Source: a virus | DNA: 20,204 nucleotides | Virus record (IMG/VR): IMGVR_UViG_3300047440_000016 | Span: 1 to 20,204 of that record | Reading direction: 5' to 3' (one strand) | In this document: in pieces, positions 149-14,519 of the stretch | How the letters are laid out: every line of letters starts with the position of its first letter | Position numbering within the stretch: the first letter of the stretch is position 1 | Made by a program: the position numbers and the translations under genes | The notes under the pieces: generated by a model | The model's input: the letters and a program-made list of their open reading frames with translations, nothing else | Databases searched by the model: none | Told to the model about the DNA's origin: nothing

Positions 149-161
149 ACAACCGGCCAAC

Positions 162-1385
162 GTGCCAATACGCGTGCGCGTGACAGTCACGCGCTACGAC
201 GCAGCCCGGCTTGGTAACGTTCGCAAGACGTCGCAGGGTTTCTTGCGGGCTCCGGCGCGCGTCACGCGCACCGGCGTGCTCACCTATCACCGGGCCGACG
301 GCTCGGTCGTGCGCGAGCTTAGGCGGCCCGACAATGTCTTCGCCGCCGACTCGCTCGCGACGCTCGCCGACGCGCCAGTGACCGATCTGCATCCGCGCGA
401 CATGCTGTCGCCGAGCAACGCCAAGCAGCTCGCCGTCGGCCATGTGTCCGGTGCATCCGCTCGAGCAGACGCCGGGCGCTTTGTCGAAGCGCAGCTCGTC
501 ATCACCGACGCCGCCATGATTACGGCCATCGAAGCCGGCGACCGGAGCGAAGTTAGTTGCGGCTACACGTGCGACCTAAAGCACGGCGCCGGCGTCTTCA
601 ACGGCGAGCACTACGACGCCGAACAAACGAACATTGTCTACAACCACGTCGGCATCGGGCCGCGCAATTGGGGCCGTGCGGGCTCCGAAGTCGCGCTGCG
701 ACTCGACAGCAAGACGCCAGACGACTTTGCGCTCGGCGAAGGCGCCGCGCGAGCAGTGCTCACCGACGAGCCAAAGAGGGACAGCAACATGGATCTGGTC
801 ACCATTCGCATCGACGGAATCGAAGCGCAAGTCACACCGACGACCGCGCAGATACTGCAACGCACGCTCGACACGCGCGACACCGCTGCGCGCGACGCCG
901 CTGCGAAGCTCACAGACTTGCAGAAGCGCTACGACGCGCAGCAAGCCGAGCTCGACGCGACGAAGACGCAGCTCGCGCAAGCCGCCGACCCGAAGCGCTT
1001 CGACGCAGCGCTGCGCGATCGGCTCGAGCTGCTCGACCGCGCGCGCCCGGTGCTGGGTCGCGACGCGAAGCTCGACGGCAAGAGCCCGCGCGACATCAAA
1101 GAGCTCGCGCTCGAGAAGATGAAAGCCGGCGGCAAACTGTCGGAACGCTCCGACGCCTACGTCGATGCGCTCTTCGACATGACCGTCGACAAGTGGCTCG
1201 CCGACAACAAGGTCAATAACCACCGCAGCACCGACCCAGCGCCGCACCATGACGGCGGCAACGGCTCAGACGTCGACGTGCACGCAATCCTCGACGGCCG
1301 GCGCGCCGACGGCACGCAGCCGCTCAAGCGCGAATATCAGTCGCCGCCGTGGCGCTCGAAGCTCGCGAGCACGCGCACCGAATAG
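162..1385 (+). CDS. DUF2213-type prohead protease with C-terminal scaffold domain
   Basis: A 407-residue head-maturation protein of the DUF2213 family. Residues about 10-182 match the family pattern: VTRTGVLTYHRADGS, a VTDLHP motif (His77), LAVGHVSG, EVSCGYTCDL (Ser132), and a YDAEQTNIVYNHV segment followed by GRAGSEVALRLD. The family is related to HK97-type prohead proteases, so His77 and Ser132 are plausible catalytic residues by inference. Residues about 215-275 are an alanine-, glutamine- and charge-rich predicted coiled coil, as expected of scaffold. The GTG at 162 is the first start after an in-frame TGA at 147; GTG at 174 or 180 would also fit, and none has a Shine-Dalgarno. A second start lies at 789. 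The protein should act inside the prohead, directing capsid assembly and then degrading the scaffold. Confidence 0.85.
   Translation: MPIRVRVTVTRYDAARLGNVRKTSQGFLRAPARVTRTGVLTYHRADGSVVRELRRPDNVFAADSLATLADAPVTDLHPRDMLSPSNAKQLAVGHVSGASARADAGRFVEAQLVITDAAMITAIEAGDRSEVSCGYTCDLKHGAGVFNGEHYDAEQTNIVYNHVGIGPRNWGRAGSEVALRLDSKTPDDFALGEGAARAVLTDEPKRDSNMDLVTIRIDGIEAQVTPTTAQILQRTLDTRDTAARDAAAKLTDLQKRYDAQQAELDATKTQLAQAADPKRFDAALRDRLELLDRARPVLGRDAKLDGKSPRDIKELALEKMKAGGKLSERSDAYVDALFDMTVDKWLADNKVNNHRSTDPAPHHDGGNGSDVDVHAILDGRRADGTQPLKREYQSPPWRSKLASTRTE
773..781 (+). promoter_or_regulatory. Internal Shine-Dalgarno for nested scaffold start
   Basis: AAAGAGGGA lies 8 nt before an in-frame ATG at 789 inside the protease gene. 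It resembles the intergenic ribosome sites of neighbours (GAAAGGGA before 1425, AGGAAGGGA before 3055), whereas the gene's own start at 162 has none. In the full-length protein it encodes the stretch Pro-Lys-Arg-Asp. Confidence 0.65.
789..1385 (+). CDS. Nested scaffold protein from an internal start
   Basis: Predicted 198-residue product identical to residues 210-407 of the protease gene, starting MDLVTIRIDG. It would supply free capsid scaffold in excess over the protease-scaffold fusion, the arrangement known for phage lambda C/Nu3. The sequence has a helical, probably coiled-coil region of about 60 residues (DLQKRYDAQQAELDATKTQL), then a more basic region and a His/Asp/Gly-rich linker near the end. 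The in-frame ATG with a strong ribosome site at 773-781 is directly visible; that it is used is inferred. The major capsid gene follows two genes downstream, which fits a scaffold role. Confidence 0.6.
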   Translation: MDLVTIRIDGIEAQVTPTTAQILQRTLDTRDTAARDAAAKLTDLQKRYDAQQAELDATKTQLAQAADPKRFDAALRDRLELLDRARPVLGRDAKLDGKSPRDIKELALEKMKAGGKLSERSDAYVDALFDMTVDKWLADNKVNNHRSTDPAPHHDGGNGSDVDVHAILDGRRADGTQPLKREYQSPPWRSKLASTRTE

Positions 1386-1424
1386 GCCGACCACACCGAC
1401 CACTCAGAAAGGGACACAACCACC

Positions 1425-1910
1425 ATGCAGCTCTCTTATCCCGCAACACCTGTGATCGGCGTGCACGGCCAACACATTGAAGGATGGCCGAGCGCCATCG
1501 CTACAGGCATCGCGCAAGCCGCTGTCGTGCAGGTCGGATGCGTTGTCATCTTCGACCCGACGGCCGGCTACGACCCGCATGCCATCAAAGCGCCCGCCGC
1601 TACGGGCGACGTCACAACTACGCTTGGCGTCGCTGGCATCACAATGTGGGATCCCACGTATCCCGAGCCCCCATACAGAATGGGCGCCTTCGTCCCCGTC
1701 ATGCGCAAGGGCCGCATTGCCATCGCCGCGGAGACCGCGCTTGCAGCGCATACAAACCCATTCGTGCGCTTCACCGTCGGCGCGCCCGGCACACTGCTCG
1801 GCGCTCTTCGCAATGACGCCGACACGGCGAAAGCGGTCGCAGCGCCCTACCTCACCGTCGTCATCGGTGCCGCTGCCGGCGGCGTCGCCGTCGTAGAAAT
1901 CAACCTGTAA
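1425..1910 (+). CDS. Capsid cement (decoration) protein, probable
   Basis: A 161-residue protein between scaffold and major capsid genes, the usual place for the cement or decoration protein that binds the outer capsid surface and stabilises it (families like DUF2190 or Gp24-type structural cement). It is rich in Ala, Gly, Val and Thr, with little charge and many short predicted beta strands (AAVVQVGCVVIFDP, RIAIAAET, PYLTVVIGAAAGGVAVVEI), consistent with a beta-sandwich. There is no signal peptide. The ATG has a GAAAGGGA ribosome site 5' of it. Family membership rests on position and composition, so the exact family is uncertain. Confidence 0.65.
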   Translation: MQLSYPATPVIGVHGQHIEGWPSAIATGIAQAAVVQVGCVVIFDPTAGYDPHAIKAPAATGDVTTTLGVAGITMWDPTYPEPPYRMGAFVPVMRKGRIAIAAETALAAHTNPFVRFTVGAPGTLLGALRNDADTAKAVAAPYLTVVIGAAAGGVAVVEINL

Positions 1911-1947
1911 CGCGCCACTGCGCCAGCGCCCGAAAGCCAAGAAGGTC

Positions 1948-3015
1948 ATGCATCAACATATTCTAGATAGGCTCGACTCTCATGCGCTCGAAGAGCAGCT
2001 CGCGCAGCTCGGCAAGAGACTCGACGCGACGAGCTTCGCGAACGTCGTGCGCGCCGTCGCACACACGCGCGCATCCATCCACGGCATCGACCGCTTAGAC
2101 GCCAACGAAACGGCGCTCTTCGGTCGAGACCTGGAGTTTATCAGTGCGCGCTTGCGCGAAGTGCACCGGCCGGCGCTCAAGTGGCGGCAGTTCGTGCCGG
2201 TGAGCTCGGAAGCGCCGCCGGGCGCGGAGACTTGGTCTTACCGCATGTGGGACAGCACCGGCATGGCTGAAATCGTCGCGAATTTCGCCGACGACATTCG
2301 CCGCGTCGCCGTGATGGCCAAAAAGCAGAGCTACGACATCGCAACGTATGCGCTCGGCTATGACTATTCAGTGCTCGACATCGAACGCGCCGCCATGGCC
2401 GGTGTCGACTACCAGAACAAAGAAGCCGAAGCCGTGCGGCTCGGCTTCGAGCAGCGGCTCGAGCGCATCGCTTCCGTAGGCCAACCCGGCACGAGCATCA
2501 AGGGGCTCGTCAACCATCCGAACGTCCCGACGATCGCCGCTTCGAACGTCGGCGGCACGACGCCATGGGGATCCGGCACGAAGACGCCCGACGACGTCTT
2601 GAAAGATATGATCGCCGCCGAAGACAGCATCTTGACGGCGACTAACAGTGTCGAATCGCCCGATACGCTGCTCTTGCCACTTAGCAAGTACCGCTACATT
2701 CAGAATACGCCCGTATACACGGGCGCCGGCAGCGACCCAGAAGACACGATCCTGCGCGTGTATCTCGCGCGCAGTGCGTTCGTGACCAACGTCGATTGGT
2801 GGATGCCGCTCGCAACGGCAGACGCGGCCGGCACTGGGCCGCGCGGCATCTGGTATCGCCGCGACCCGCGATACGTGCACTTCGAACTGTCGATGCCACC
2901 GCGCGAGCTGCCGCCGCAAGCGAAGAATCTCGCACTCGCCGTCGAAAGCTGGGCTCGCGCCGGCGGCGTCGCTTGGGAGTATCCGCTCTCCGCTGTCTAC
3001 ATGGATGGCATCTAG
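1948..3015 (+). CDS. Major capsid protein, DUF2184-type
   Basis: A 355-residue HK97-fold major capsid protein that forms the icosahedral shell. The N-terminal region (1-60) is helical. The segment at about 85-150 (ETWSYRMWDSTGMAEIVANF, then a stretch with DDIRRVAVMAKKQSYDIATY) and the ending with an aromatic, PP-containing region, ARAGGVAWEYPLSAVYMDGI, match the DUF2184 capsid family. The length is typical of that family. Its ATG has AAGAAGG 2-3 nt upstream, a tight spacing. It follows scaffold and cement genes and precedes the connector genes, the canonical head order. It lacks an obvious long N-terminal delta domain, in agreement with a separately encoded scaffold. Confidence 0.85.
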   Translation: MHQHILDRLDSHALEEQLAQLGKRLDATSFANVVRAVAHTRASIHGIDRLDANETALFGRDLEFISARLREVHRPALKWRQFVPVSSEAPPGAETWSYRMWDSTGMAEIVANFADDIRRVAVMAKKQSYDIATYALGYDYSVLDIERAAMAGVDYQNKEAEAVRLGFEQRLERIASVGQPGTSIKGLVNHPNVPTIAASNVGGTTPWGSGTKTPDDVLKDMIAAEDSILTATNSVESPDTLLLPLSKYRYIQNTPVYTGAGSDPEDTILRVYLARSAFVTNVDWWMPLATADAAGTGPRGIWYRRDPRYVHFELSMPPRELPPQAKNLALAVESWARAGGVAWEYPLSAVYMDGI

Positions 3016-3054
3016 CCGGGCGCCACACCGCACACGCAGGAAGGGACCAAGCAC

Positions 3055-3453
3055 ATGCAACCCCGCTACACCGCACCCACACCGACGCCAACGGCGACCG
3101 GCGACGCCACAGTCACAAACCTAACAGCCCGCATTTTGTGGGTACAGAGCAACAGCAAGCTCATCAAGTTTCCACCGCTCGAGACCGTCATCGTCGCCGC
3201 CGAAGACGTCGAACAAGTCGGCTATGCGCTCGTCGGCGTCTTCGCGCCCTACGTCGAAGACGGCACCATTACCTATACGCTGCCGGAGGCACCGCCGGTG
3301 CTCGACCCAACCGGCACCGGCACCGAATGCCCGCCGACGACACCGCCGACCACTCCGACGGCGCCAGCGCCGTCGCCGGGGCAACTGCCGGCCGACCCGA
3401 CTACGCCGCCGACAGCGGCATCGAAGCTCACGCCGAAGGGCTCAAGCAAGTAA
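3055..3453 (+). CDS. Unknown head-region protein with Pro/Thr-rich tail
   Basis: A 132-residue protein that I do not recognise. Residues about 18-76 look like a small alpha/beta domain (TARILWVQSNSKLIKFPPLE, then EQVGYALVGVFAPYVEDG). Residues about 77-132 are a low-complexity tail dominated by Pro, Thr and Ala, ending in basic residues. The start has one of the best ribosome sites in the window (AGGAAGGGA). Its place between capsid and connector genes suggests a minor virion or head-assembly protein; the Pro/Thr-rich tail could be a surface-exposed spacer. No function is claimed. Confidence 0.7.
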   Translation: MQPRYTAPTPTPTATGDATVTNLTARILWVQSNSKLIKFPPLETVIVAAEDVEQVGYALVGVFAPYVEDGTITYTLPEAPPVLDPTGTGTECPPTTPPTTPTAPAPSPGQLPADPTTPPTAASKLTPKGSSK

Positions 3454-3460
3454 CCGCGCC

Positions 3461-3811
3461 ATGACCGTCACAGTCGAGCAAATCTTTGACGAGTTCCCGG
3501 AGTTCGCGCGCTGCGCGTTCACGCTCGTCAAAGCCAAGCTCGACGACGCCGAAGCGCTCACCGCGGCGACCTTCGCCGGTGCAACGCCCGTCGCGAAGCC
3601 CGACGGGCTTACACCGCCGGGCGTTGTGTTCGTCGACACCGCGCGCGACATGCGCGTGAAATACCTCACGGCCGAGCTGTTAGTCTTGACGCCGGCCGGT
3701 GAGTTCGCGCGGCTCGACCCGAGCAAAGAGCCAGACGGCGCCCGTTCCATCTATGAGCGGCGCCGTATGGAGCTCGACCGCAACTACAACCCGCTCGCCA
3801 TGGTGCTTTGA
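3461..3811 (+). CDS. Head-tail connector protein, DUF4054-like
   Basis: A 116-residue protein starting MTVTVEQIFDEFPEF, the FxxxFPEF opening typical of DUF4054 connector proteins. The second half (KYLTAELLVLTPAGEFARLD, then DGARSIYERRRMELDRNYNP) fits the family's helical segment plus the conserved Gly and YE..R/W ending. Such proteins form the ring below the portal that seals the DNA-filled head and accepts the tail. The ATG at 3461 lies 7 nt after the previous stop; an in-frame upstream extension overlaps the preceding gene and is unlikely. The next gene starts one base after its TGA. Confidence 0.7.
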   Translation: MTVTVEQIFDEFPEFARCAFTLVKAKLDDAEALTAATFAGATPVAKPDGLTPPGVVFVDTARDMRVKYLTAELLVLTPAGEFARLDPSKEPDGARSIYERRRMELDRNYNPLAMVL

Positions 3812-3812
3812 C

Positions 3813-4274
3813 ATGGCCGTCACCGATACCGACAAGGGCTGGAATGACCTAGGCAAGGCCGTCGCGAAGCTCAACGGCGGCCCCTATGTGCTCGTCGGTA
3901 TTCAAGGCTCGAAGGGCTCGGCGCAGCACGGCGCCGACGGCTTGACGAATATCGAGCTCGGCACGATTCACGAGTTCGGGTTAGGTGTGCCGGAGCGCTC
4001 GTTCATCCGTGCCGGCGTCGACGAAAACCAGAAGACACTCGTCGACTTCATGGCGACGATGGGTCAGCGCTTTCTGCTCGGCGAAATCACCGAAGCCGCG
4101 CTGCTCGGCCTTACTGGCGAGAAAGCCGTCGACATCATCAAGGATCGCATTCTCGCCCATATCGAGCCCGCGCTGCAACCCGCGACGGTCGCGAAGAAAG
4201 GCGGCATAGAGACGCCGCTTGTCTGGCACGCGACGCTTATCAACTCCATCACTTGGGAAATAGGCGCCAAGTGA
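3813..4274 (+). CDS. Head-tail joining / tail completion protein, probable
   Basis: A 153-residue protein with the pattern of phage neck or tail completion proteins (HK97 gp10-like and virion morphogenesis groups): a strand-rich VLVGIQGSKG segment at about 25-35, then IELGTIHEFGLGVPERSFIR at about 49-68, where the HEFG-x-PERSFIR motif is characteristic. The C-terminal half is helical and ends with an LVWHATLINSITWEIG segment, which in relatives packs against the neck. The ATG at 3813 overlaps nothing but follows the previous TGA by one base, so coupling is likely. The exact family is inferred from motif and position. Confidence 0.65.
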   Translation: MAVTDTDKGWNDLGKAVAKLNGGPYVLVGIQGSKGSAQHGADGLTNIELGTIHEFGLGVPERSFIRAGVDENQKTLVDFMATMGQRFLLGEITEAALLGLTGEKAVDIIKDRILAHIEPALQPATVAKKGGIETPLVWHATLINSITWEIGAK

Positions 4275-4870
4275 ACTGGCAAGACTTCGCCGATGGCACG
4301 CGCGCGTGGGTCGCAAGCACGTCGAAGATTCACATCGACGACGTCGTATGGACCGGCGAGCCCGAAGGCATGCTCGGTCGACCTTGCGCGCGGCTCAATC
4401 TGCTCGGCGCCAATCCGCCGGTGAGCAGCGACGAAGTGCGCCTAGTGTCGCAGGGACCCGGCGAAGACGCCGCCGTGCGCATCGTCGGCAACCGCGCGAT
4501 CATCCTGAATGTGCTCGTGCAGACCCGCGACGGCACACCGTGGGGACGCGCCTTCCGATACCTCGAGCGGCTTCGAGATGCGCTCTTTTTGCCAAGCACG
4601 CAACAGCTATTCTCCGAGCTGCGCGTCGCACTCGAAGGCCCCGGCGTGCTCGTCGACTTGCAGCGATTCGTCGACTTCCGGCGCGAGTCGGCCGCAAGCC
4701 TCGACCTTCGAATGAACTACGCATTCGACACCATGTGCGAATGCGGCGAAGGGCTCACGCCCGAAACCATCGGCACGATTGAACACGTGCGCGTAGCTGG
4801 CACCGTCCACACGCCACTCGGCGGCGACGTCGACGTTGTGCAGGTCCCCGAAAAGCAGCTCGATAGATAG
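4271..4870 (+). CDS. Neck/tail terminator protein, LIC_12616-like
   Basis: A 199-residue protein placed where the tail terminator is expected, before sheath and tube. It contains a segment typical of terminators that cap the tail tube and accept the head: AAVRIVGNRAIILNVLVQTR at about 72-91, then WGRAFRYLERLRDALFLPST. The GTG start at 4271 overlaps the previous TGA as GTGA, which is preferred over an in-frame TTG at 4253 because the same GTGA overlap recurs at 7311, 12745 and 13920. The end is close to the sheath start at 4879. The family name is inferred from motif resemblance and gene order. Confidence 0.6.
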   Translation: MNWQDFADGTRAWVASTSKIHIDDVVWTGEPEGMLGRPCARLNLLGANPPVSSDEVRLVSQGPGEDAAVRIVGNRAIILNVLVQTRDGTPWGRAFRYLERLRDALFLPSTQQLFSELRVALEGPGVLVDLQRFVDFRRESAASLDLRMNYAFDTMCECGEGLTPETIGTIEHVRVAGTVHTPLGGDVDVVQVPEKQLDR

Positions 4871-4878
4871 GTGAAATC

Positions 4879-6189
4879 TTGGGAACCGAAATCGAAGTTA
4901 TCCAACACACAGTCGTAGTCGCCGACGCCACGGTGACGCGCTTCGGCTTCGGCATTGCGCTCATTGCCGTCAATCACAGCTACTGGCCCGAGCTCGTGCG
5001 AACATTCAACACCGCCGACGAGCTCACGTTGCCGCCTTACAACGTGCCGAAGACGAGCGCGCTGTATCTCGCGGCGAAGCAGCTCAAGTCACAGTCTCCG
5101 AGCCCGCCTTCGTATAAGGTCGGCCGACTCACCGGCGGCTTTACACAGACGTTCACGCTCACGCCGACGGCACCGACTGCGCCTAACCAACACTACACAG
5201 TGACCATCGACGGCGTCGCGGTCGACGTGACCGGCTCGCCGCCGGACACCGACGCGGCCATCTGCGCAAAGCTCATCACGGCCATCAACGCCATCACCGA
5301 CGTCACGGCGACCGGCACGACGAGCGTCACTGTCACCAGCGACACCGCGAACATCACGCACGCGGTCTCGAATGTCTCGAGCAATATCGTCTTCGCCGAC
5401 ACGACACTCGCGCCGACCGTATTGCCGGCGGTCGACTTGGCGGCCATCCGTGCAGCCGATGGTGACTGGTATGCGCTGCTCATGCTCACGCCGAGCGCGG
5501 CCGCCATCTCGAGCGCCGCGTCTTGGGCGCAGCTCGAGCGCGCGATTTATCTCGCCGCGAGCTCCGACAGCGCCATCCCGACGGCGGCGACAACGGACAT
5601 TGCGAGCGTGTTGCAGGCTCAGTCAATGACCCGCTCGTCCATCTGGTATCACCCAAATCAGGCCGAATATCTCGACGCGGCCGTAGTCGGTGCGATTTTG
5701 CCGAAGTTGCCGGGGCCCGTGTCGTTCGCGAACAAGGGGCTCGCGGCCGTGACGATGCAGAATCCCAACGCGACGCAGCGCTTGGCGCTCAAGACCAAGC
5801 ACGCGAACTGTTACGTCAACATCAAGGGGCTTGGCTTCACGTTGTGGGGTTGGGCCGCTTCGGGGCGCTTTCTCGACGTCACCGTCGCTATCGATTGGTT
5901 CGACGTCAACATCGAAGATCGCATTGTGTCCCTGTTACGCAACAATGACGTCGTGCCGTATACCGCGAGCGGTATCGAGCTCGTGCGCTCGCAAATCAAC
6001 GGGCAAATCCTCGACGGCATCGCGCTCGGCATCATCGACGGGCAACAGCCCTATTCAGTCACGGCGCCCGAGCTCGCCGCCATCGACCCGGCGCTCAAGA
6101 CGCAGCGCATTCTGCCGGACATGCGTTACACGTATGCACTCTCCGGCGCCATCCATCAGGTCCGCGTTGTCGGGCTCGTGCAGGTCTAG
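4879..6189 (+). CDS. Contractile tail sheath protein, DUF3383-type
   Basis: A 436-residue sheath protein that surrounds the tube and contracts to drive it into the host. The N-terminal beta region, the inserted YTVTIDGVAVDVTGSPPDTD-like domain at about 105-175, the ADGDWYALLMLTPS core near 195, IWYHPNQAEYLDAAVVGAIL near 255, and the NCYVNIKGLGFTLWGWAASG segment plus FLDVTVAIDWFDVNIEDRI near 312-350 match DUF3383 sheaths. The C-terminal part (PDMRYTYALSGAIHQVRVVG) is the expected beta-handshake-like end. The start is TTG at 4879 with AGGTGA just upstream; no ATG or GTG in this frame is near, so the rare start appears real. Its identity as sheath also implies a myovirus. Confidence 0.85.
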   Translation: MGTEIEVIQHTVVVADATVTRFGFGIALIAVNHSYWPELVRTFNTADELTLPPYNVPKTSALYLAAKQLKSQSPSPPSYKVGRLTGGFTQTFTLTPTAPTAPNQHYTVTIDGVAVDVTGSPPDTDAAICAKLITAINAITDVTATGTTSVTVTSDTANITHAVSNVSSNIVFADTTLAPTVLPAVDLAAIRAADGDWYALLMLTPSAAAISSAASWAQLERAIYLAASSDSAIPTAATTDIASVLQAQSMTRSSIWYHPNQAEYLDAAVVGAILPKLPGPVSFANKGLAAVTMQNPNATQRLALKTKHANCYVNIKGLGFTLWGWAASGRFLDVTVAIDWFDVNIEDRIVSLLRNNDVVPYTASGIELVRSQINGQILDGIALGIIDGQQPYSVTAPELAAIDPALKTQRILPDMRYTYALSGAIHQVRVVGLVQV

Positions 6190-6226
6190 GACCCAATAGT
6201 CAGAAGCCGATAGGAGCCACCGCGTT

Positions 6227-6664
6227 ATGGGTTTTAAAGCCTGGAATATCAATGAAATGTCACTCAGTCTAAACGCCGTGCCGCTCGACGGCGGCGGCTA
6301 TGCCGAAGACGAAGTGCTCACCATCGATTGGACCGAAGATTGGTTCAGCATGTACGTGGGCGCCGACGGCGAAGTGACGCGCGTTCGTACGAACAACTTC
6401 TCCGCACTCGCGACACTCAAGTACGCGCAGACCGCCGACGCCAACGACCGCTTGAGCGCCATGCTCACCGCAGACATCGCCGTGCTAAACGGTGCCGCCG
6501 CCGGCGTCTTCAATGCTCGCGACCAATCGGGCCGCTTGCTCGTCACGAGCGCGCGTGCGTGGATCACTGCGCCGCCGGCGATCAAAATCGGCAAAACGGT
6601 GCAAGTGTACGAATGGAAGATCAACCTAGCCGACGCCCGCACGTCATTCTTCGGAGGTCGCTAA
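6227..6664 (+). CDS. Tail tube protein, DUF3277-type
   Basis: A 145-residue inner tail tube protein. The family hallmarks are visible: an early MSLSLNAVPLDGGGYAEDEV strand pair, YVGADGEVTRVRTNNFSALA at about 43-62 (the GADGEV.R.R.NN motif), a DRLSAMLTADIAV helix, and a terminal AWITAPPAIKIGKTVQVYEW segment. It follows the sheath gene, as in most myophages. The ATG is preceded by TAGGAG 10 nt upstream. The tube stacks from the baseplate to the terminator, with its length fixed by the tape measure encoded further on. Confidence 0.85.
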   Translation: MGFKAWNINEMSLSLNAVPLDGGGYAEDEVLTIDWTEDWFSMYVGADGEVTRVRTNNFSALATLKYAQTADANDRLSAMLTADIAVLNGAAAGVFNARDQSGRLLVTSARAWITAPPAIKIGKTVQVYEWKINLADARTSFFGGR

Positions 6665-6667
6665 GAG

Positions 6668-7201
6668 ATGCCGACGCGCGCGGTAAAGGACAAGGTCATA
6701 GGCGGCCATCGCTACGAAGTGACGTTGCTCGGCGCGAAGCAGGGACGGGCGATGCTGGTGCGTCTGGTGCGCCTTATGGGCCCCGCAACGGCCGGCTTCA
6801 TCGAAGGTACCCTGCACGCTAAAGGCGACCTCACCGTGTCGCTAGCGTCGGGCGCGTCCGATGCTATCCGCGAGCTGTCGCAGCGCATCACCGAAGCCGA
6901 GTTCGCCACCGTGAGCGACGAACTCGCGCGCTTCACGGTCGTGCATCTCGACCACGAGCACGCGCCGAAGCTCGACGCCATCTTCGAAGACCACTTCGCC
7001 GGGCGCTATGACGTCATGTTGCAGTGGTTCGGCTTCGCGCTAGAGGCAAATTTCTCGAGTTTTTTCGACGGCACCGCGAGCGGCAAGAGCACGCTCGCGG
7101 AACGGTTGAAAGCGCTGACGTCATTACTTGCGCCATCCCGGCCGGCGTCGACTGGGACATCCACCGCATCGCCACAAGCAGCCACTATCACGCCGGACTA
7201 G
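6668..7201 (+). CDS. Tail assembly chaperone, unshifted product
   Basis: A 177-residue product directly after the tube gene and two reading steps before the tape measure, the invariant place of the tail assembly chaperone (analogue of lambda gpG). It opens with VIGGHRYEVTLLGAKQGRAM and includes a helical second half (EFATVSDELARFTVVHLDHE). It ends in a low-complexity Ala/Ser/Thr/Pro tail after the frameshift site at 7060, as expected of a non-conserved zero-frame end. It should coat the tape measure during tail assembly. Family recognition is from organisation and partial motif resemblance. Confidence 0.75.
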   Translation: MPTRAVKDKVIGGHRYEVTLLGAKQGRAMLVRLVRLMGPATAGFIEGTLHAKGDLTVSLASGASDAIRELSQRITEAEFATVSDELARFTVVHLDHEHAPKLDAIFEDHFAGRYDVMLQWFGFALEANFSSFFDGTASGKSTLAERLKALTSLLAPSRPASTGTSTASPQAATITPD

Positions 7202-7314
7202 CGGAGATTTGCCACGATTGGAGCCTTGACGACCTATACGACGCTCATGCGGTGCTCGATATGTACGATGAACTAGACCGCCGCCACGCTGCCGCAGTAA
7301 GGGACCGCAAGTGA
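6668..7314 (+). CDS. Tail assembly chaperone, -1 frameshift fusion
   Basis: Predicted 215-residue fusion, join 6668-7066 and 7066-7314, made when ribosomes slip back one base at T TTT TTC (7060-7066). The added 82 residues run into a helical end (LAEICHDWSLDDLYDAHAVL, DMYDELDRRHAA), a pattern seen in the T-like part of chaperone fusions. The -1 frame stays open from 7024 to the TGA at 7312-7314, has no ATG before 7261 and no ribosome site, so independent translation is unlikely. The tape measure GTG at 7311 overlaps its TGA as GTGA. The fusion normally links the chaperone-coated tape measure to tube subunits, at a fixed ratio to the short form. Confidence 0.8.
7042..7100 (+). promoter_or_regulatory. 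Programmed -1 ribosomal frameshift cassette
   Basis: Three parts are visible. AGAGG at 7042-7046 is Shine-Dalgarno-like and lies 13 nt upstream of the slip site. T TTT TTC at 7060-7066 is a canonical X XXY YYZ heptamer in the zero frame (codons TTT TTC). CCGCGAGCG at 7074-7082 pairs perfectly with CGCTCGCGG at 7092-7100 around a 9-nt loop, starting 7 nt after the heptamer. A second heptamer, A AAT TTC at 7048-7054, lies 12 nt earlier in the same frame. Its codons (AGT, TTT, AAT) are otherwise uncommon here, suggesting selection. Confidence 0.8.
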
Positions 7315-9062
7315 GCGCGGTAGTCGTGCGCGAGCTCGTTGCGCTGCTCGGCTTGAAGGTCGACGAAGCCGCGTTCAAAAAAGCCGACGCCGGGCTCGAC
7401 AAGGTAAAGAAAGGGCTCGAAGGCGTCGACGGCAAGATGCGCGACGCCAAGGGCCGTTTCATCGGCGCCGGGCGCAGTATGGGCGACGGCGCTGCCGGTG
7501 CCGCCGGCGCCAGTGCGAAAGCCATCGCGAAGCAGGTAGGCGGCTCGAGCGGCATCGGTGCCGCCATCGGCACGACGCTCGGCAAGTACATCGGCGGTGC
7601 CGCGGTCGTCTCCGCGATCGCGCACATGACCGAGCTCGCGAGCTCTGCCGATGAAACTAACAACGTGTTGCAGCAAGTCTTCGGCCCTAGTGGCGAAGCC
7701 GAAGTGCATGCGTGGGCCGAGACGACCGCGCGCGAGATGGGCCGATCTAAATATGCGCTCGAAGCCAACGCCGGCGCACTCGGCGCCATGCTCGAGCCAA
7801 TGACCGGCAACGCTAGCAAAGCGCAAGAAATGTCGACCCGCTTCGCCGGGCTCGCGGTCGACTTGGCGAGCTTCTTCAATGCATCCGACGACGATGCGCT
7901 CGCGGCGCTCAAGAGCGGTATATCGGGCGAAGCCGAGCCGCTCAAGCGCTTCGGCATCGTCATGCAAGACGCGACGCTGCAAGAATACGCGCACAAAGAG
8001 GGTATCCAAAAGAAGCTCGCGGCCATGACTGTCGCCGAGAAAACAGAGCTTAGATACGGCTACATCCTGAGCCAGACCACGAAAGCGCAAGGCGATGCCG
8101 CTCGCACCGCCGACGGCTTCGCCAACCGGCAACGCGCGCTCACCGACTCGGTTCGCGACCTTGCGACCGACATCGGCAAAAAGCTTCTGCCGGTCGCGAC
8201 CAAGCTGCTCGGCTGGGCACTGACCTCAATCAAGAAATTCGGCGAGCTCACGAAGACGAGCAACGTACTCAAGGCGAGTATGGCCGTGCTCGGCGTTATC
8301 ATGCTTGCCGCGTTCGCTCCGGCGCTGGTTTCGATTGGCGCCGTGGCTGCCGCGCTGCTTCTCGTGGTCGGCATCGTCGACGACCTCATTACGTGGTTTG
8401 AAGGCGGCGATTCGGCCTTCGGCGACTTGCTAGAAAGCATGTTCGGGCTCGGCAGCTCGGCCAAAGTGCTCGCGGCGTTCAAAGAAGCGCTCGACGATGC
8501 CGGCAAAGCCTGGGAGGTCTTCACGACCGCGATCCGTCGCTTCCCTTGGGAAGATACCTTCGACCGATACGATCGGCGGCTGCGCGTCTTCGGCGAGACC
8601 ATCAAGCTACTAGCGAAACAGTGGCGCTACTTCGCCGGCGTCACGGGCGACAAGCCCATCACAGACGAAGAGTCACAAGACATCGCAGCCGAAGCCGAAG
8701 ACGCCGCCGCCGCCGGCGTGCGACGTATGCGCGCCAGGGAAGCAGAAGCCAAGCGCTTGCAGCGCGAAGCCGAAGCGCGCGCCGAAGTGCAACGCCAGCT
8801 CGACGCCGAAGCCACAGAAAACAAGGGCCGCACAGACCTAGCTTACGCAAATCCGTATGCATCCTACGCCGGCGGCGCATCCGCGTCGGCACCGCTCCCG
8901 CCGCCGCAGTCGGCTGCAACAACGGTCAACCAAGCGCCGATCACTATCAACAACTTTCTGCCGCCTAACGCCAACGTCGGCGACTACACGCGCGCCCAAG
9001 ACCGCGCGAATGACATCAACCTTCGCCGCACGAAAGCCGCGCTCGAGCGCACGGCGCCGTAA
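7311..9062 (+). CDS. Tail tape measure protein
   Basis: A 583-residue tape measure that sets tail length and is ejected with DNA. The N-terminal part (about 5-45) is a charged helix. Residues about 105-245 carry the core TMP pattern: EAEVHAWAETTAREMGRSKY, then AGLAVDLASFFNASDDDALA and LKSGISGEAEPLKRFGI. A long hydrophobic stretch at about 321-358 (MAVLGVIMLAAFAPALVSIG and what follows) may insert in the host membrane. Residues about 455-505 are a charged, alanine-rich helix, and the C-terminal 60 residues are Pro/Asn-rich. By the usual 0.15 nm per residue it implies a tail near 85-90 nm, short for a myovirus. The GTG start overlaps the preceding TGA. Confidence 0.85.
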   Translation: MSAVVVRELVALLGLKVDEAAFKKADAGLDKVKKGLEGVDGKMRDAKGRFIGAGRSMGDGAAGAAGASAKAIAKQVGGSSGIGAAIGTTLGKYIGGAAVVSAIAHMTELASSADETNNVLQQVFGPSGEAEVHAWAETTAREMGRSKYALEANAGALGAMLEPMTGNASKAQEMSTRFAGLAVDLASFFNASDDDALAALKSGISGEAEPLKRFGIVMQDATLQEYAHKEGIQKKLAAMTVAEKTELRYGYILSQTTKAQGDAARTADGFANRQRALTDSVRDLATDIGKKLLPVATKLLGWALTSIKKFGELTKTSNVLKASMAVLGVIMLAAFAPALVSIGAVAAALLLVVGIVDDLITWFEGGDSAFGDLLESMFGLGSSAKVLAAFKEALDDAGKAWEVFTTAIRRFPWEDTFDRYDRRLRVFGETIKLLAKQWRYFAGVTGDKPITDEESQDIAAEAEDAAAAGVRRMRAREAEAKRLQREAEARAEVQRQLDAEATENKGRTDLAYANPYASYAGGASASAPLPPPQSAATTVNQAPITINNFLPPNANVGDYTRAQDRANDINLRRTKAALERTAP

Positions 9063-9070
9063 GAGCCACC

Positions 9071-9985
9071 ATGCCCGACGCCTATCAACGCGAAGTTATG
9101 CACTTGCAAATCGACCGCATCTGGATTGATTGCAGCATCCGCGAAAGCCACGGCATGAGCGCGCAGTGCACACAGTTTCCGGTCGAAGACGGGCCCAACG
9201 TGAGCGACCACGTGCGCACGCAGCCCGAGACGCTACACCTCGAAGGCGTCGTATCGAATACGCCGCTCGACGCGCCCAAGTCGCACACCGAAGGGCTCGT
9301 CTTCGACGACAAGTCGAGCTACGCGCTACGCGACGCGCACGGTCAAAAAATCACGACCACATTCGATACCTACGTCTCGAAGTCGCTCGAAGGCGAGCCA
9401 GTCGGCGCATGGTTGAGCGTTTTGCCGTTCGTCGGCCAGGTCGCAGACCTCACACGCCGGAGCACCGATCCACGTTGGCCGAAGGTCAAGCTCGCCATGG
9501 AGCGCGCGCAGCCGCGTAACATTCTCAATAACCTATCCATGACGGCGCCGCAGATGCTCATCTCTCCGGCCGCAAACCCGCGCACCGACGTCGCGACGGC
9601 ATCGGTCGACCGCGTCGAAGCCGTGGCGGCCGCGCTGCGCGATTCCTTCATGCGCCGGCGGCCCGTGCAGGTCGTGACCGCTTTCCGGACCTATCAGAAC
9701 GCCGTGATGGTCGAACTGTCTGTCACGCGCGACGCGTCGAGCTCGCGCAATGCACTCATGTTCACGGCGCAGTGTCAGATGGTCAACGTCGTTGGCGTGA
9801 CGTATGGAACGCCGTTGCCGGCACAAGTACGTGCGACGCCGGCAAAGGCTAAAGGGACCCAAAACACCCAACCAACCAAGCCCGGCGAAGTCTCGCCGGA
9901 CCAAAAAGACAAGACGAGCTCGCTCAAGCAAGTCTTGAGCGGCGCAAGAGAGAGACTGCAAGCGCTCGCGCATCCTACACCGTAA
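9071..9985 (+). CDS. Dit-like baseplate protein
   Basis: A 304-residue baseplate component with the N-terminal pattern of Dit-like tail proteins: an opening IWIDCSIRESHGMSAQCTQF, then PVEDGPNVSDHVRTQPETLH and LEGVVSNTPLD at about 38-68. The PVEDG..VSDHV motif is well conserved in such proteins. Residues about 200-255 form a second beta-rich part (RPVQVVTAFRTYQNAVMVEL). The end is a Lys/Gln/Thr-rich linker plus a short helix (SSLKQVLSGARERLQALAH). It should lie at the tube base, between tape measure and hub. A weak AAGAG precedes the ATG. Confidence 0.7.
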   Translation: MPDAYQREVMHLQIDRIWIDCSIRESHGMSAQCTQFPVEDGPNVSDHVRTQPETLHLEGVVSNTPLDAPKSHTEGLVFDDKSSYALRDAHGQKITTTFDTYVSKSLEGEPVGAWLSVLPFVGQVADLTRRSTDPRWPKVKLAMERAQPRNILNNLSMTAPQMLISPAANPRTDVATASVDRVEAVAAALRDSFMRRRPVQVVTAFRTYQNAVMVELSVTRDASSSRNALMFTAQCQMVNVVGVTYGTPLPAQVRATPAKAKGTQNTQPTKPGEVSPDQKDKTSSLKQVLSGARERLQALAHPTP

Positions 9986-9991
9986 CCGTGC

Positions 9992-10318
9992 ATGGCAAGC
10001 CTACGCATCGTCACGACGCCCGACGTCGACACTACCCAACGCGTGCAGCTAAGCGGCTCGAGCTATGCGCTGCGCATCGTCTGGAGCCAACGTGGCGAGT
10101 GCTTTCACATGCATGTGTCTGATAGCGCCGGTGTGCCTCTCGTCGTCGGCGTGCGTATGATCACCTTGTATCCGCTGCTCGACCGCTATCATTACAATAC
10201 GGCGCTGCCGCCGGGCGATTTGTGGTTTCTCGACATGCGCGACGTCGGTGCGAAGCCGACGCTCGCCGAGATGGGCGACCGGTTTCGCCTTTACTACGTC
10301 ACCGATGGCACATGGTGA
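9992..10318 (+). CDS. Baseplate plug-like protein, Pam3 gp18-type
   Basis: A 108-residue protein resembling the small plug protein of the cyanophage Pam3 baseplate. The pattern is a beta-rich start, then SSYALRIVWSQRGECFHMHV at about 23-42, VPLVVGVRMITLYPLLDRYH at about 48-67, and a LPPGDLWFLDMRD segment with a RFRLYYV ending. Relatives seal or line the channel at the tube end until contraction. It lies between the Dit-like and hub genes, as in Pam3. The ATG lies 6 nt after the previous stop. The identity is from motif recall, not alignment. Confidence 0.65.
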   Translation: MASLRIVTTPDVDTTQRVQLSGSSYALRIVWSQRGECFHMHVSDSAGVPLVVGVRMITLYPLLDRYHYNTALPPGDLWFLDMRDVGAKPTLAEMGDRFRLYYVTDGTW

Positions 10319-10321
10319 CGC

Positions 10322-11182
10322 ATGGCCGACGACCCGAACGGCATACCGCAAGACGCACTCTTCGACCGCATCTATGCGTTGCAGGTCGAAGACATCAGCA
10401 TTTCCGAGCTGAATATTCAGTTCAACGTCAAGCGCTCGTTGTCCGCGAAGGTCTCCGGCCGCTGCGACGTTGTGATCAACAACCTATCCGAAGAGACCCG
10501 CAAGCGTCTGCACGCCATGCGGCAGGTCTTCGTCTCGGTCGAAGCCGGCTATGTGCACACGGGCTTGAGTCTCATCTTTCGCGGCGACCTCGCCGAAGCC
10601 TGGAGTGCGCGCGAAAATACAGAATGGACTACCACGATCACGAGTGACGACGGCGGCGCAAAGAAGAAAGCCGCGCGCGTGCAACGCAACTACGTGCAGG
10701 GAACTACCCTTGCCAAGATTATCAACGACATCGCCGCGGCGATGCATGTCGGCGCCGGCAATGCGGCAGCCATCGCCAGCAATGCGCGGTACTGGAAAAC
10801 AGGTCAAGCCGCGGTCGGCAAAGGCATCACGACGAGCGGCAATGCCGTCTCGCAGCTCGACCGCATTACGCGGTCGTGCGGGCTGTCATGGTCGATTCAA
10901 GACGGCGAACTGCAGTTTCTTCCGTCGCGCGACGCGGTGCTGCCGGACCCGCCTATCTTGCTGTCGCCGCAGAGCGGCTTGATTGAGTCGCCCGAGCTCG
11001 GAAAAGACCAACTCGTCAAAGCGCGCACGCTCATGCTTCCCGGCTTGTATCCCGGCCGGCAAGTCGAGCTCAAGACGCGCTATGTCGCCGGCGTCTATCG
11101 TATCGACACGGTGAGTTTCAAGGGCGAGTCGCTCGGCAATGCGTGGGGGGCCGAGCTCGAGCTCAGTGCCGTCAAGCGCTAG
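10322..11182 (+). CDS. Baseplate hub protein (gpD/gp27/Mu gp44-like)
   Basis: A 286-residue protein with the plan of phage hub proteins: N-terminal strands (ISELNIQFNVKRSLSAKVSG), a CDVVINNLSEETRKRLHAMR stretch at about 56-75 (the NLS..T...L pattern typical of hub domain 1), a helical KIINDIAAAMHVG region near 140, and an ITRSCGLSWSIQDGELQFLP element near 190, then a C-terminal GRQVELKTRYVAGVYRIDTV segment. The hub forms the trimer that connects the tube to the central spike. It begins 4 nt after the plug gene's TGA. Confidence 0.75.
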   Translation: MADDPNGIPQDALFDRIYALQVEDISISELNIQFNVKRSLSAKVSGRCDVVINNLSEETRKRLHAMRQVFVSVEAGYVHTGLSLIFRGDLAEAWSARENTEWTTTITSDDGGAKKKAARVQRNYVQGTTLAKIINDIAAAMHVGAGNAAAIASNARYWKTGQAAVGKGITTSGNAVSQLDRITRSCGLSWSIQDGELQFLPSRDAVLPDPPILLSPQSGLIESPELGKDQLVKARTLMLPGLYPGRQVELKTRYVAGVYRIDTVSFKGESLGNAWGAELELSAVKR

Positions 11183-11222
11183 GGCTCTTGCGCGCGGCTC
11201 GACTCTGCCGCTATGCGCCGGC

Positions 11223-11444
11223 ATGCAGAACGCCGAAGAGACGACAGCCAACACACCCACCGCGGCAGACGCCGAAGAGATCACGGCCACGCTCGAGCGC
11301 CCGGCCGCCGAAGCCGAGCCCGAGCCGGTCGGGCTCGCCAGTTCCGAGCATCAACACGTCATCCCGGCGAGCGACTTGCAGCCCATCCCGGCCGCGGTCG
11401 ACGTCGAGCTCGACGACGAAGACGGCGCCGCCGAGTCAAACTAG
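11223..11444 (+). CDS. Small acidic protein of unknown function
   Basis: A 73-residue protein between hub and spike genes that I do not recognise. It has 18 acidic residues, one Arg and no Lys, with an acidic C-terminus (VDVELDDEDGAAESN). It has no membrane segment or signal. Codon use matches neighbours, and its TAG is immediately followed by the spike ATG at 11445, suggesting coupling. The ATG at 11223 is the first in this frame after the hub stop; no clear ribosome site is seen. It could be a spike or hub assembly factor, or a structural linker. An artefactual ORF is possible but less likely, because the tight junction with the spike would then be coincidental. Confidence 0.6.
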   Translation: MQNAEETTANTPTAADAEEITATLERPAAEAEPEPVGLASSEHQHVIPASDLQPIPAAVDVELDDEDGAAESN

Positions 11445-12218
11445 ATGGCATCCGCGACGCCCGATTTGGCCGAGCTGGTGCAGGTCGCGATCGCTTCGGC
11501 GCTCGCCGATGCGCATACGGCCATGCCGGGTCAAATCGTCGCGGTGTACACCGACGCGAACGGCCGCGGTCAAAGCGCCGACGTGCGGCCGTCGCTGCGC
11601 AACACGCTACCGACCGCCGACGACGTCGAAGGCTTCGAGCCGTACGCCGAAGAAGACTTGCCGGTGATTCCGCGCGTGCCGATCGCCTACCCACAAGGCG
11701 GCGGTTTCGCGATCACATGGCCGCTCGCCGCCGGCGACTTTGTCTTGCTCGTCTTCGCCGAGCGCTCGATTGACCAATGGCTCAACACGGCATCCAAAAG
11801 CCGCCAGGTTGCCATCTCGACGGGCGACCTCGGTACACACACGCTCGACGGCGCTGTCGCCCTACCGCTCGGCCCAGCGCCCTATGCGCACCTTCTAAGC
11901 GCGGTCGCTTCGAATGCCATGCGGCTCGGTCATGACACCGGGAAGGCCATTTTCGTCACCGCGAGCAAGGTCAATCTAGGCAGTTCGGCGCCGACCGACT
12001 CGGTCGCGCTCGCCAGCAAGGTCGACGACGAGCTCGCGCGCATCGCCGCCGACCTCTCGCGGCTCACGCTCGCCACCGAAACCGCGATCGGTGCTGTCCC
12101 CGGCGGCGGCGCCGCGAAAACCGCTTTCGCGGCGGCCGTCGGCTCGACCGCGGTGCCGCCGGCCAAAGTGCCATCGGACCCGGCCGCCGTCGGCTCGACC
12201 GTCGTCGGCAGCGACTAA
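11445..12218 (+). CDS. Baseplate membrane-puncturing spike, Gp138-type
   Basis: A 257-residue central spike. Residues about 1-120 match the Gp138 N-terminal region (OB-fold): helical start, MPGQIVAVYTDANGRGQSAD, VPIAYPQGGGFAITWPLAAG and DFVLLVFAERSIDQWLNT, a very characteristic stretch. The middle carries short beta elements expected of a spike (SKVNLGSSAPTDSVALASKV), and the C-terminal ~60 residues are low-complexity Ala/Gly/Pro repeats (AVGSTAVPPAK, AAVGSTVV). No apex HxH iron motif is seen. It should sit below the hub and pierce the outer membrane or envelope on contraction. Confidence 0.8.
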   Translation: MASATPDLAELVQVAIASALADAHTAMPGQIVAVYTDANGRGQSADVRPSLRNTLPTADDVEGFEPYAEEDLPVIPRVPIAYPQGGGFAITWPLAAGDFVLLVFAERSIDQWLNTASKSRQVAISTGDLGTHTLDGAVALPLGPAPYAHLLSAVASNAMRLGHDTGKAIFVTASKVNLGSSAPTDSVALASKVDDELARIAADLSRLTLATETAIGAVPGGGAAKTAFAAAVGSTAVPPAKVPSDPAAVGSTVVGSD

Positions 12219-12240
12219 GCGCTCGAGCTGCCGGCGCATC

Positions 12241-12264
12241 GATGCACCGATGCACCGGTGCACT
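12241..12264 (+). repeat. 8-bp tandem repeat array, right copy
   Basis: Three octamers are visible: GATGCACC, GATGCACC and GGTGCACT. They use the same unit as the array at 107-146. The first unit holds an ATG at 12242 in frame with the downstream gene, and the second unit an ATG out of frame, so a change in unit number would change which ATG is in frame. Confidence 0.75.
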
Positions 12265-12266
12265 TG
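12245..12266 (+). promoter_or_regulatory. Candidate start-associated element, copy 2
   Basis: This matches 127-148 at 19 of 22 positions in the same orientation and ends 14 nt before the ATG at 12281, against 13 nt for copy 1 and its GTG. Neither downstream gene has a visible Shine-Dalgarno. A role in initiation or regulation of these two transcripts is inferred. Confidence 0.45.
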
Positions 12267-12280
12267 CGCTTCGGTCCACT

Positions 12281-12748
12281 ATGCCGGTATTGCCCGGCGT
12301 GACCGACCTTGCGCTCGACCCGCTCGACGGGGACATCGTCATCGCCGGCGGCGACCTGGTGCTCGTCACGGGCGCCGACGCCGTCGCTCAAGACGCCAAT
12401 CTGCGCGTCGCCCTATTCAAGGGCGAATGGCCGCTCGACGTGAGAGTCGGTATCGACTACCGCGCGCTCTTTTTTGACCGCCGGCCGCCAGAAGCCGTCG
12501 TGCGCGCAGTCTTCGGGCAAGTGCTTCGCGAGACCGGCGGCGTCGCTTCGGTCGACCGGATGCAGATTGCCTTCGACCGCACGTCGCGCGCTCTCAACGT
12601 CTCGGCGACCGTCACGACGACCGACGGAACGGTCGTGCCGGTATACCGCGACGTGCTCGTGACGCTCGACGCAGCCAACGCGCCCGACGCCGACGGGGCC
12701 CCGGCCGGCAACTCGGCGAGCTCGCTCTTCACCGGGGGCACACCGTGA
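12281..12748 (+). CDS. Baseplate wedge protein, gp25/Mu gp46-like
   Basis: A 155-residue wedge component. The opening VTDLALDPLDGDIVIAGGDL, then VLVTGADAVAQDANLRVALF and KGEWPLDVRVGIDYRALFF, match the gp25/gpW-like and Mu gp46 pattern, where a helix followed by a G.W..D...G..Y motif is typical. The end is a beta-hairpin region (LNVSATVTTTDGTVVPVYRD). ATG 12281 is preferred to the in-frame ATG 12242, which lies inside the octamer array and would add a Cys/Arg-rich prefix unlike the family. In the baseplate it joins with baseplate J, whose GTG at 12745 overlaps this gene's TGA. Confidence 0.75.
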   Translation: MPVLPGVTDLALDPLDGDIVIAGGDLVLVTGADAVAQDANLRVALFKGEWPLDVRVGIDYRALFFDRRPPEAVVRAVFGQVLRETGGVASVDRMQIAFDRTSRALNVSATVTTTDGTVVPVYRDVLVTLDAANAPDADGAPAGNSASSLFTGGTP

Positions 12749-13923
12749 GCGGGCTCACTCCGCAAGGCTTCGTCGCGAAGACCGTCGACGAGATACTCGC
12801 CGAGCTTCGCCAATCGCAGCGCTCCAACGTCGACGGCTCGCTCAATACGTCGGCGACCGGCGTCATCGCCAACTTGAATATGGCGTTCGCGCTCGAGCTC
12901 GCCGCCGCCTGGGAAGCCATCGCCGAAGTCTACGACGCACACGACCCGGTGAGCGCCGAAGGCATCGCAGCCGATGCGAACGGCTCGCTCGTCGGCGTAC
13001 CGCGGCGACCAGCGACCAAAGCACTCACGACGCTACACCTTACGATGGCGCCTAACACGCTAGTCCCCGAAGGTAGCGTCGTGTCAGACCCGACGCGCCC
13101 GGCCGTGCGGTTCGTGACGCTCGCCGATGCGCTCACGTCGACGACTTCGACGAGCTTCGACGTCGCCGCGGCCGCGGAGACCGCCGGCACGCTCACGGCC
13201 GGCGCCAACACGCTAACCAAAATCGAAAGCCCGGCATCCGGTTGGACAGCCGTCACGAATCCAGCGACCGCCATTCCAGGTCAAGACGTCGAGACGGACG
13301 AAGAGTACCGCATCCGCCAAGCCGAGCTGCGCGCGACAAGCGAAGGCTCGACGCTCGCCGGCATCGTCGCCGACGTGCGGCTGCTTCCGAATGTCATCAC
13401 CGCGGCCGGCTACGAAAACACATCCGACGTCACGGTCAACCTGCTACCGCCGCACTCATTCGAAATCGTGGTATCCGGCGGCGCCGACGCGGCGATCGCG
13501 CAATCCATCTGGCGCAATAAACCCGCGGGCATCGAGACCTACGGCACGACCACAGTCACGATCACAGACAGTGAAGGCGTGACGCATCCGGTGCGCTTCT
13601 CTCGCCCCGTCGACAAGATTGTCAACGTCAACTACGCCGCGACCATCGACGCAAGCTATGTCGCCGGCAGCATCCGCTCGACGCTCGAGCAAGCCAGTGT
13701 CGACATCACGAGCCCGGCGCACTTCGCCATCGGTGCGCCCGTCTATCTCGTGCGGCTGCTCGCCATCGCATCCGAAGTGCGCGGCGTCGTGAACGTCACG
13801 CTCGACATCGCGCTTGCGCCGGCGCTGCCGCCGGATGCCGTGCCGACTTCGCCCGATAACGTGCTGCCGGTGTCGACGCGCGAAGTCGCGACATTCACCG
13901 GCGCGAACTGGGTCGGCCCGTGA
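12745..13923 (+). CDS. Baseplate J-like wedge protein
   Basis: A 392-residue baseplate J (Mu gp47/P2 gpJ type). The family signature is clear: AVTNPATAIPGQDVETDEEY at about 168-187, RIRQAELRATSEGSTLAGIV, then ENTSDVTVNLLPPHSFEIVV near 225-244, and GGADAAIAQSIWRNKPAGIE, TYGTTTVTITDSEGVTHPVR and FSRPVDKIVNVNY. The N-terminal helix (TVDEILAELRQSQRSNVDGS) and AFALELAAAWEAIAEVYDAH are also typical. Two copies per wedge usually embrace gp25-like protein and trigger sheath contraction. The GTG start overlaps the previous TGA; its own TGA overlaps the next start. Confidence 0.85.
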   Translation: MSGLTPQGFVAKTVDEILAELRQSQRSNVDGSLNTSATGVIANLNMAFALELAAAWEAIAEVYDAHDPVSAEGIAADANGSLVGVPRRPATKALTTLHLTMAPNTLVPEGSVVSDPTRPAVRFVTLADALTSTTSTSFDVAAAAETAGTLTAGANTLTKIESPASGWTAVTNPATAIPGQDVETDEEYRIRQAELRATSEGSTLAGIVADVRLLPNVITAAGYENTSDVTVNLLPPHSFEIVVSGGADAAIAQSIWRNKPAGIETYGTTTVTITDSEGVTHPVRFSRPVDKIVNVNYAATIDASYVAGSIRSTLEQASVDITSPAHFAIGAPVYLVRLLAIASEVRGVVNVTLDIALAPALPPDAVPTSPDNVLPVSTREVATFTGANWVGP

Positions 13924-14519
13924 CGCTCGAGCACAACGCGCAAGTCGTCGCGCAAGGTCAAGCGCTGCCGATTTACGACCTGCGCACGCCGAAGTTTCTC
14001 GCGTTGCTCGGCACCTATCTCGAGCAGATTCAACAGCTCGAAGACGCCGTCTACGACGTCTTCGTCGGCACCATGTTGCCCGGCGCCGAAGGCGATGCGC
14101 TCGACATGCTCGGCGAGCTCGTCGGCCAACCACGCGCCGGCCGCGACGACGAGACCTATAAGATATGGATATCGGCGCGCGTCATGCTCAACAGCTCGAG
14201 CGGCCGGCCGCCTGACATCTTGGGTATTGCTCGCACCATCATGCCGCCGGCCGGCACTGTCTTACTCACAGAGTATTTCCCCGGCGCATTCAAGCTCGAG
14301 CTTATAGAGCTGCCGGCGGCGACTACGGCCGTGCAGCTGCATGACCTATTCAATGAAGCAAAGGCGGCCGGCGTGCGCATTGACGTCGCGTATTCGGCGC
14401 TACCCATCGGCGAGCAGTTCACGCTCGGCGCCGCCGCAGTTACGCCTGACATCAACGTGTTTCAAGGCTTCTCCGACATCGCGCAAACAACCGGCGGCGC
14501 GCTCGCTGGAGTGGTGTAG
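13920..14519 (+). CDS. DUF2612-type baseplate protein (gpI/Mu gp48-like)
   Basis: A 199-residue protein that completes the wedge and typically links it to the fibre. The family pattern is FLALLGTYLEQIQQLEDAVY at about 24-43, then GAEGDALDMLGELVGQPRAG near 55-74, YKIWISARVMLNSSSGRPPD near 80-99, and ILGIARTIMPPAGTVLLTEY. The C-terminal end (FQGFSDIAQTTGGALAGV) also fits. The GTG start overlaps the baseplate J stop as GTGA. The fibre gene begins two nucleotides after its TAG, as expected if this protein anchors the fibre. Confidence 0.75.
   Translation: MTLEHNAQVVAQGQALPIYDLRTPKFLALLGTYLEQIQQLEDAVYDVFVGTMLPGAEGDALDMLGELVGQPRAGRDDETYKIWISARVMLNSSSGRPPDILGIARTIMPPAGTVLLTEYFPGAFKLELIELPAATTAVQLHDLFNEAKAAGVRIDVAYSALPIGEQFTLGAAAVTPDINVFQGFSDIAQTTGGALAGVV

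Follow-up and report, generated by a model that had tools for sequence, protein, structure and literature searches.

The G/GT genes of phage lambda, the spread of such genes among tailed phages, and the experiments that established the roles of the lambda products have been reviewed (PMC5009743). For the chaperone family to which the locus described here belongs, the part of PMC12846349 drawn on here argues for -1 frameshifting in Vandenendeviridae (phage Adele and PAK_P2) and in Andersonviridae, and it reports a GTTTTT motif as invariant in the frameshifting chaperones. Efficiencies of 6–7% have been measured for other phage chaperone genes (PMC3711429). U UUU UUC belongs to the heptamers at which E. 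coli ribosomes tend to shift. Joint stimulation by a Shine–Dalgarno (SD) sequence and a hairpin is listed for nine gene clusters in PMC4066793, where the SD lies 6–17 nt upstream and the structure 5–8 nt downstream.

The window, that is, the whole stretch of DNA analyzed here, is the complete virus record IMGVR_UViG_3300047440_000016, of 20,204 bases. An original prediction had placed a -1 frameshift cassette in its tail chaperone gene, and the coordinates and spacings given there for the heptamer, the AGAGG element, the stem, and a further heptamer, A AAT TTC, proved correct to the base on direct reading. The features are as follows.

6668–7201, plus strand: tail assembly chaperone gene, frame 0; short form of 177 aa, of which residues 1–133 are the shared N domain
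7042–7046, plus strand: AGAGG, SD-like candidate upstream stimulator with a GAGG core; 13-nt gap to the heptamer
7048–7054, plus strand: A AAT TTC, the second heptamer of the original prediction; probably incidental
7060–7066, plus strand: T TTT TTC, slippery heptamer and putative -1 site
7067–7073, plus strand: 7-nt spacer from heptamer to stem, read directly from the sequence
7074–7100, plus strand: hairpin of 9 bp with a 9-nt loop, candidate downstream stimulator
7066–7314, plus strand: -1 frame extension, C domain of the predicted long form; 82 codons plus stop
7311–9062, plus strand: tape measure protein gene with a GTG start (PHROG 1535, tail length tape measure, E 1.4e-27)

The identification of the gene as a tail chaperone held up. 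Its product matches PF21822, Phage_TAC_15, in Pfam (E 9.8e-17; 62.1 bits against a cut-off of 22) and PHROG 1613, tail assembly chaperone (E 1.2e-18), and an AlphaFold2 model of the frame-0 protein has a pLDDT of 87. As in G/GT-type loci, the gene is flanked by tail tube/sheath genes on one side and by the tape measure gene on the other, in the order sheath (4879), structural protein (6227), chaperone (6668), and tape measure (7311). The -1 frame is open to 7314, as had been predicted, and its TGA stop (7312–7314) overlaps the tape measure GTG at 7311; fusion of the two frames at the heptamer would give 215 residues. Searches of the PDB for folds like the N domain and the -1 domain gave no significant match for either. 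For the N domain model (6668–7066), a match to 5ir0, the ORF19 protein of a PICI-like element from Vibrio cholerae, was weak and non-significant (TM 0.64 by target, E 0.69).

The window and lambda gpG/gpGT are alike in that a -1 shift immediately upstream of the tape measure gene would yield a short and a long chaperone. Lambda has a different heptamer, and its chaperone is unrelated in sequence to that of the window. The likeness to the chaperones in the part of PMC12846349 drawn on here is closer, extending to the family, the order before the tape measure gene, a probable -1 shift close to where the N domain ends, the position of the T run, and the GTTTTT motif itself. Unlike those phages, the window is part of a GC-rich, uncultivated clade, has about 24–30% identity to them in the N domain and a 45-codon overlap of the two frames, and carries a GC hairpin of high stability together with an SD-like GAGG; that part of PMC12846349 describes no stimulators. 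In the latter respect the locus resembles the signals of E. coli dnaX and of IS911/IS3-type elements, which combine an SD-like element, a heptamer, and a downstream hairpin at similar spacings. The heptamer of dnaX is A AAA AAG, however, the gene is unrelated, and the dnaX and IS911/IS3-type stimulators have been proven by mutation, whereas those of the window are predicted. Because both chaperone frameshifting and joint stimulators are already published, the finding is ordinary in kind. What is new, as judged from sequence comparison, is the clade, the evidence that the SD-like element is under selection, and the distinction between a heptamer that is old and hairpins that are specific to lineages.

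The slippery heptamer and the -1 frame

Relatives of the locus were gathered through the chaperone, capsid, and sheath proteins and a diverse chaperone alignment and span 24–100% identity; a scan of genome contigs for the chaperone found no relative. In the window, the frame-0 codons within the heptamer are TTT (7061) and TTC (7064). Of about 70 relatives, with identities down to 24%, nearly all have T TTT TTN at the corresponding position, so that, as in G/GT-type genes, a canonical in-frame heptamer is kept where the N domain ends. Among synonymous recodings of the chaperone gene made with the codon usage of the window, 1.6% acquire T TTT TTN in the reading frame. Variants among the relatives have T TTT TT followed by C, A, G, or T, and PAK_P2 and L138 show a GTT TTT arrangement at the site. 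Two relatives, L108 (at 2827) and L109 (at 2863), apparently have G GGT TTC and A AAT TTC, respectively, at about the homologous place. Frame-0 homology to Felix O1-like phages stops at the heptamer, tblastn matches to them mostly ending at residues 133–136. Synonymous-site conservation over codons 125–133 taken together is not significant (P 0.19).

Beyond the frame-0 stop, the -1 frame varies as coding sequence does. In 11 close relatives without indels, the variable columns after the frame-0 stop (7201) fall 5/8/22 on the three -1 codon positions, of 37 each. A W..R..L..W..D..A pattern is kept in the -1 extension of 26 sequences, and its predicted structure is confidently helical from about residue 20 onward. 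A Pfam search of the -1 domain returned no credible match; its counterpart in the related phage Michonne, which was deposited with ribosomal slippage annotated in the chaperone gene, matches PHROG 4963, tail assembly chaperone (E 4.7e-51).

How ribosomes come to this frame could, in principle, be explained in several ways. First, the -1 frame could be an independent small gene, entered at a start codon of its own through coupling or reinitiation, a view put forward for T4-like phages. A separate small ORF is indeed often annotated in relatives (for example, PAK_P2, Alteromonas PT11-V22, and Silverhawkium). A search of the -1 extension in the window for ATG, GTG, or TTG, however, found none in the first 62 codons, the first being codon 63, past the conserved core at codons 29–60 (with DWDIHR at codons 29–34); the core thus has no independent-start origin. 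The extensions of L110 and L065 are without any of these codons, and several other relatives resemble the window. An independent start for the -1 ORF was therefore rejected on the lack of a start codon before the core. A separate gene would also leave the conservation of T TTT TTN unexplained, and we regard this account as extremely unlikely. Thus, as in G/GT-type genes, the -1 frame is coding and can be reached solely by a shift. In the window it is open for only 48 nt upstream of the heptamer, and in L070, L071, L078, and L080 it opens just 9 nt before the heptamer, so that no earlier shift is possible there and the frame change falls at the heptamer.

Second, the change of frame could arise from slippage of RNA polymerase on the T run, giving edited transcripts. 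A run of six T is slippery for polymerases in principle, but bacterial transcriptional slippage usually requires runs longer than six, and the apparent heptamers of L109 and L108 contain no long run. Moreover, the conservation of the SD-like element and the spacing of the hairpin fit ribosomal frameshifting. Polymerase slippage is, in our judgment, hardly credible at all.

Third, it had been proposed that A AAT TTC at 7048 and T TTT TTC at 7060 may act in tandem. In the window, as in L068, L069, L083, L084–L086, and L090, both are canonical heptamers of frame 0. A AAT TTC has nonetheless disappeared from 7 of 10 close relatives, and in L070, L071, L078, and L080 a -1 frame TAA overlaps its place and so excludes it as a slip site. 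The tandem proposal thus fell, and joint action of the two sites in the window appears very unlikely.

The single shift fared better. The heptamer of the relatives, the coding character of the -1 frame, and the point at which homology switches frames support the prediction of -1 frameshifting with a 215-residue product. We consider it very probable, on these comparisons, that -1 frameshifting at T TTT TTC yields the 215-aa chaperone beside the 177-aa short form, with the SD-like element and the hairpin probably aiding it.

Candidate stimulators

The gaps of 13 nt from the SD-like element to the heptamer and 7 nt from the heptamer to the stem fit the ranges of PMC4066793 and likewise those of dnaX-type signals, in which the SD lies about 6–17 nt upstream and a stable hairpin about 5–8 nt downstream. 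An alternative is that the heptamer alone matters, with GAGG and the hairpin being by-products of the conserved LEANF motif, high GC content, and dual coding. In its favor, GAGG sits in a conserved Glu-Ala codon pair, a fixed frame-0 peptide together with a fixed -1 peptide leaves one free base in 7067–7108, and relatives without the stem, such as L090, or without the SD exist.

For the SD-like element, codon choice bears on this alternative. Window genes behave as if SD-like GAGG were avoided inside them, judged from a dependence of the Glu codon on the next base: before a G-initial codon, Glu is GAA 74 times and GAG 4 times in 13 window genes, and the GAGG site is one of the 4. Before A, C, or T, window genes in 162–14519 have GAG 72 times and GAA 35 times. 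Among relatives with Glu followed by a G-initial codon at the SD-like site, 22 of 24 have GAG, against 10.9 expected from the usage of each locus itself, a count that ignores kinship. Within the same chaperone genes, the codon at the SD-like site is GAG in 26 of 29 cases; of the remaining Glu codons that precede a G-initial codon, 40 of 77 are GAG (Fisher P 2e-4, likewise ignoring kinship). This enrichment over other Glu codons, together with the strong avoidance of GAG before G in the window, speaks against a mere by-product of the peptide, as does the finding that where the residues differ (LKEN, in L128 and L137), AAGGAG stands instead. The exceptions are L058, L063, and L065, which have GAA, and L106 and L110, which have no Glu. 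Compared with synonymous recodings, SD energies go in a consistent direction and are weak per sequence (median P 0.32), and across the sheath, tube, and chaperone genes two of nine Glu columns are always GAG, which makes that comparison weak. Selection on the SD-like element is thus supported by the sequences, and the element is a probable frameshift stimulator.

The hairpin is perfect, with CCGCGAGCG at 7074–7082 pairing with CGCTCGCGG at 7092–7100. Just 5 distinct perfect hairpins of at least 9 bp with loops of 3–12 nt occur in the 20.2-kb window, and 7073–7102 is the lowest-energy of 4,780 30-nt segments from the structural genes (161–14500). This extreme energy argues against a by-product. 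Alignment of relatives, which had been proposed as a check on both heptamer and stem, bore out the former and was less telling on the latter: all nine pairs form in 10 of 10 distinct close-clade sequences, two of them changing from G-C to G-U, and the invariance is not separate evidence because dual coding forces the stem. More telling are L080 and L083 (contigs L022 and L019), in which the sequence has changed and a stable stem has re-formed in a shifted register, and GC-rich relatives outside the clade, whose hairpins are more stable than a background that includes singly coding sequence (21 representatives, KS P 0.001). Low-GC relatives as a group give no hairpin energy signal (P 0.51); both statistics ignore kinship. 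One group of relatives has a 7-bp stem with a loop of varying length, in which one pair is seen as A-U, G-U, and G-C. Stem pairs are kept in 96–100% of cells, and the observed covariation was reached by 138 of 500 shuffles.

On balance, it is unlikely that the heptamer acts alone and that both elements are by-products, and we take the hairpin, too, as a probable stimulator. The original prediction had likened the two to the stimulators of dnaX. This stands for both as probable stimulators and does not extend to the family as a whole: the heptamer is ancient and general, and the strong GC stem is lineage-specific, present in the uncultivated clade of the window and in certain further GC-rich relatives, with no evident counterpart in those like Felix O1. 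Because several relatives have no notable stem or SD, neither element is essential in the chaperone family.

Proposed mechanism and related observations

The sequences show the elements, the conservation of the two frames, the point of the switch, and selection on the signals. From these we infer how the slippage would proceed and how efficient it would be, how the SD-like element and hairpin would stimulate it, and what the proteins would do. Most ribosomes would stay in frame 0 and make the 177-aa short form. A minority would pause at U UUU UUC, where GAGG 13 nt upstream would pair with the 16S anti-SD and the hairpin 7 nt downstream would resist unwinding. Two tRNA-Phe could then re-pair one base back, from UUU/UUC to UUU/UUU, and translation in the -1 frame would run to 7314, giving the 215-aa long form with its extra C domain. 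By analogy to lambda gpG/gpGT, the short form may serve as a coat for the tape measure protein, and recruitment of tail tube subunits may fall to the long form.

Across the family, the heptamer would then be fixed while the stimulators turn over. We suggest tentatively, as a possibility somewhat short of even, that the SD-like element is ancient and retained by many relatives and that hairpins have arisen and been remade from new sequence in GC-rich lineages, as though tuning the ratio of short to long form to the ribosomes of each host. The locus is a clear-cut natural case of probable tail chaperone frameshifting that has both candidate bacterial stimulators, and since some relatives in the family are without one or the other, the role of each in setting this ratio becomes testable. 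It also bears on annotation: what is listed in these phages as a small ORF ahead of the tape measure gene should be corrected to the C-terminal part of the fusion.

Two further observations concern a relative and the far end of the window. The chaperone locus of Listeria phage LPML1 (OK283618; L044) is much like those of Hafnia phages of Ounavirinae, and its stated Listeria host may be doubtful. In the window, 14522–20203 is a single open frame of 1,894 codons that runs off the end and holds many direct repeats (at spacings such as 96, 201, and 924 nt) and many DHVH (H-x-H) units; it resembles a gene for a long, repetitive tail fibre that has expanded through duplication.
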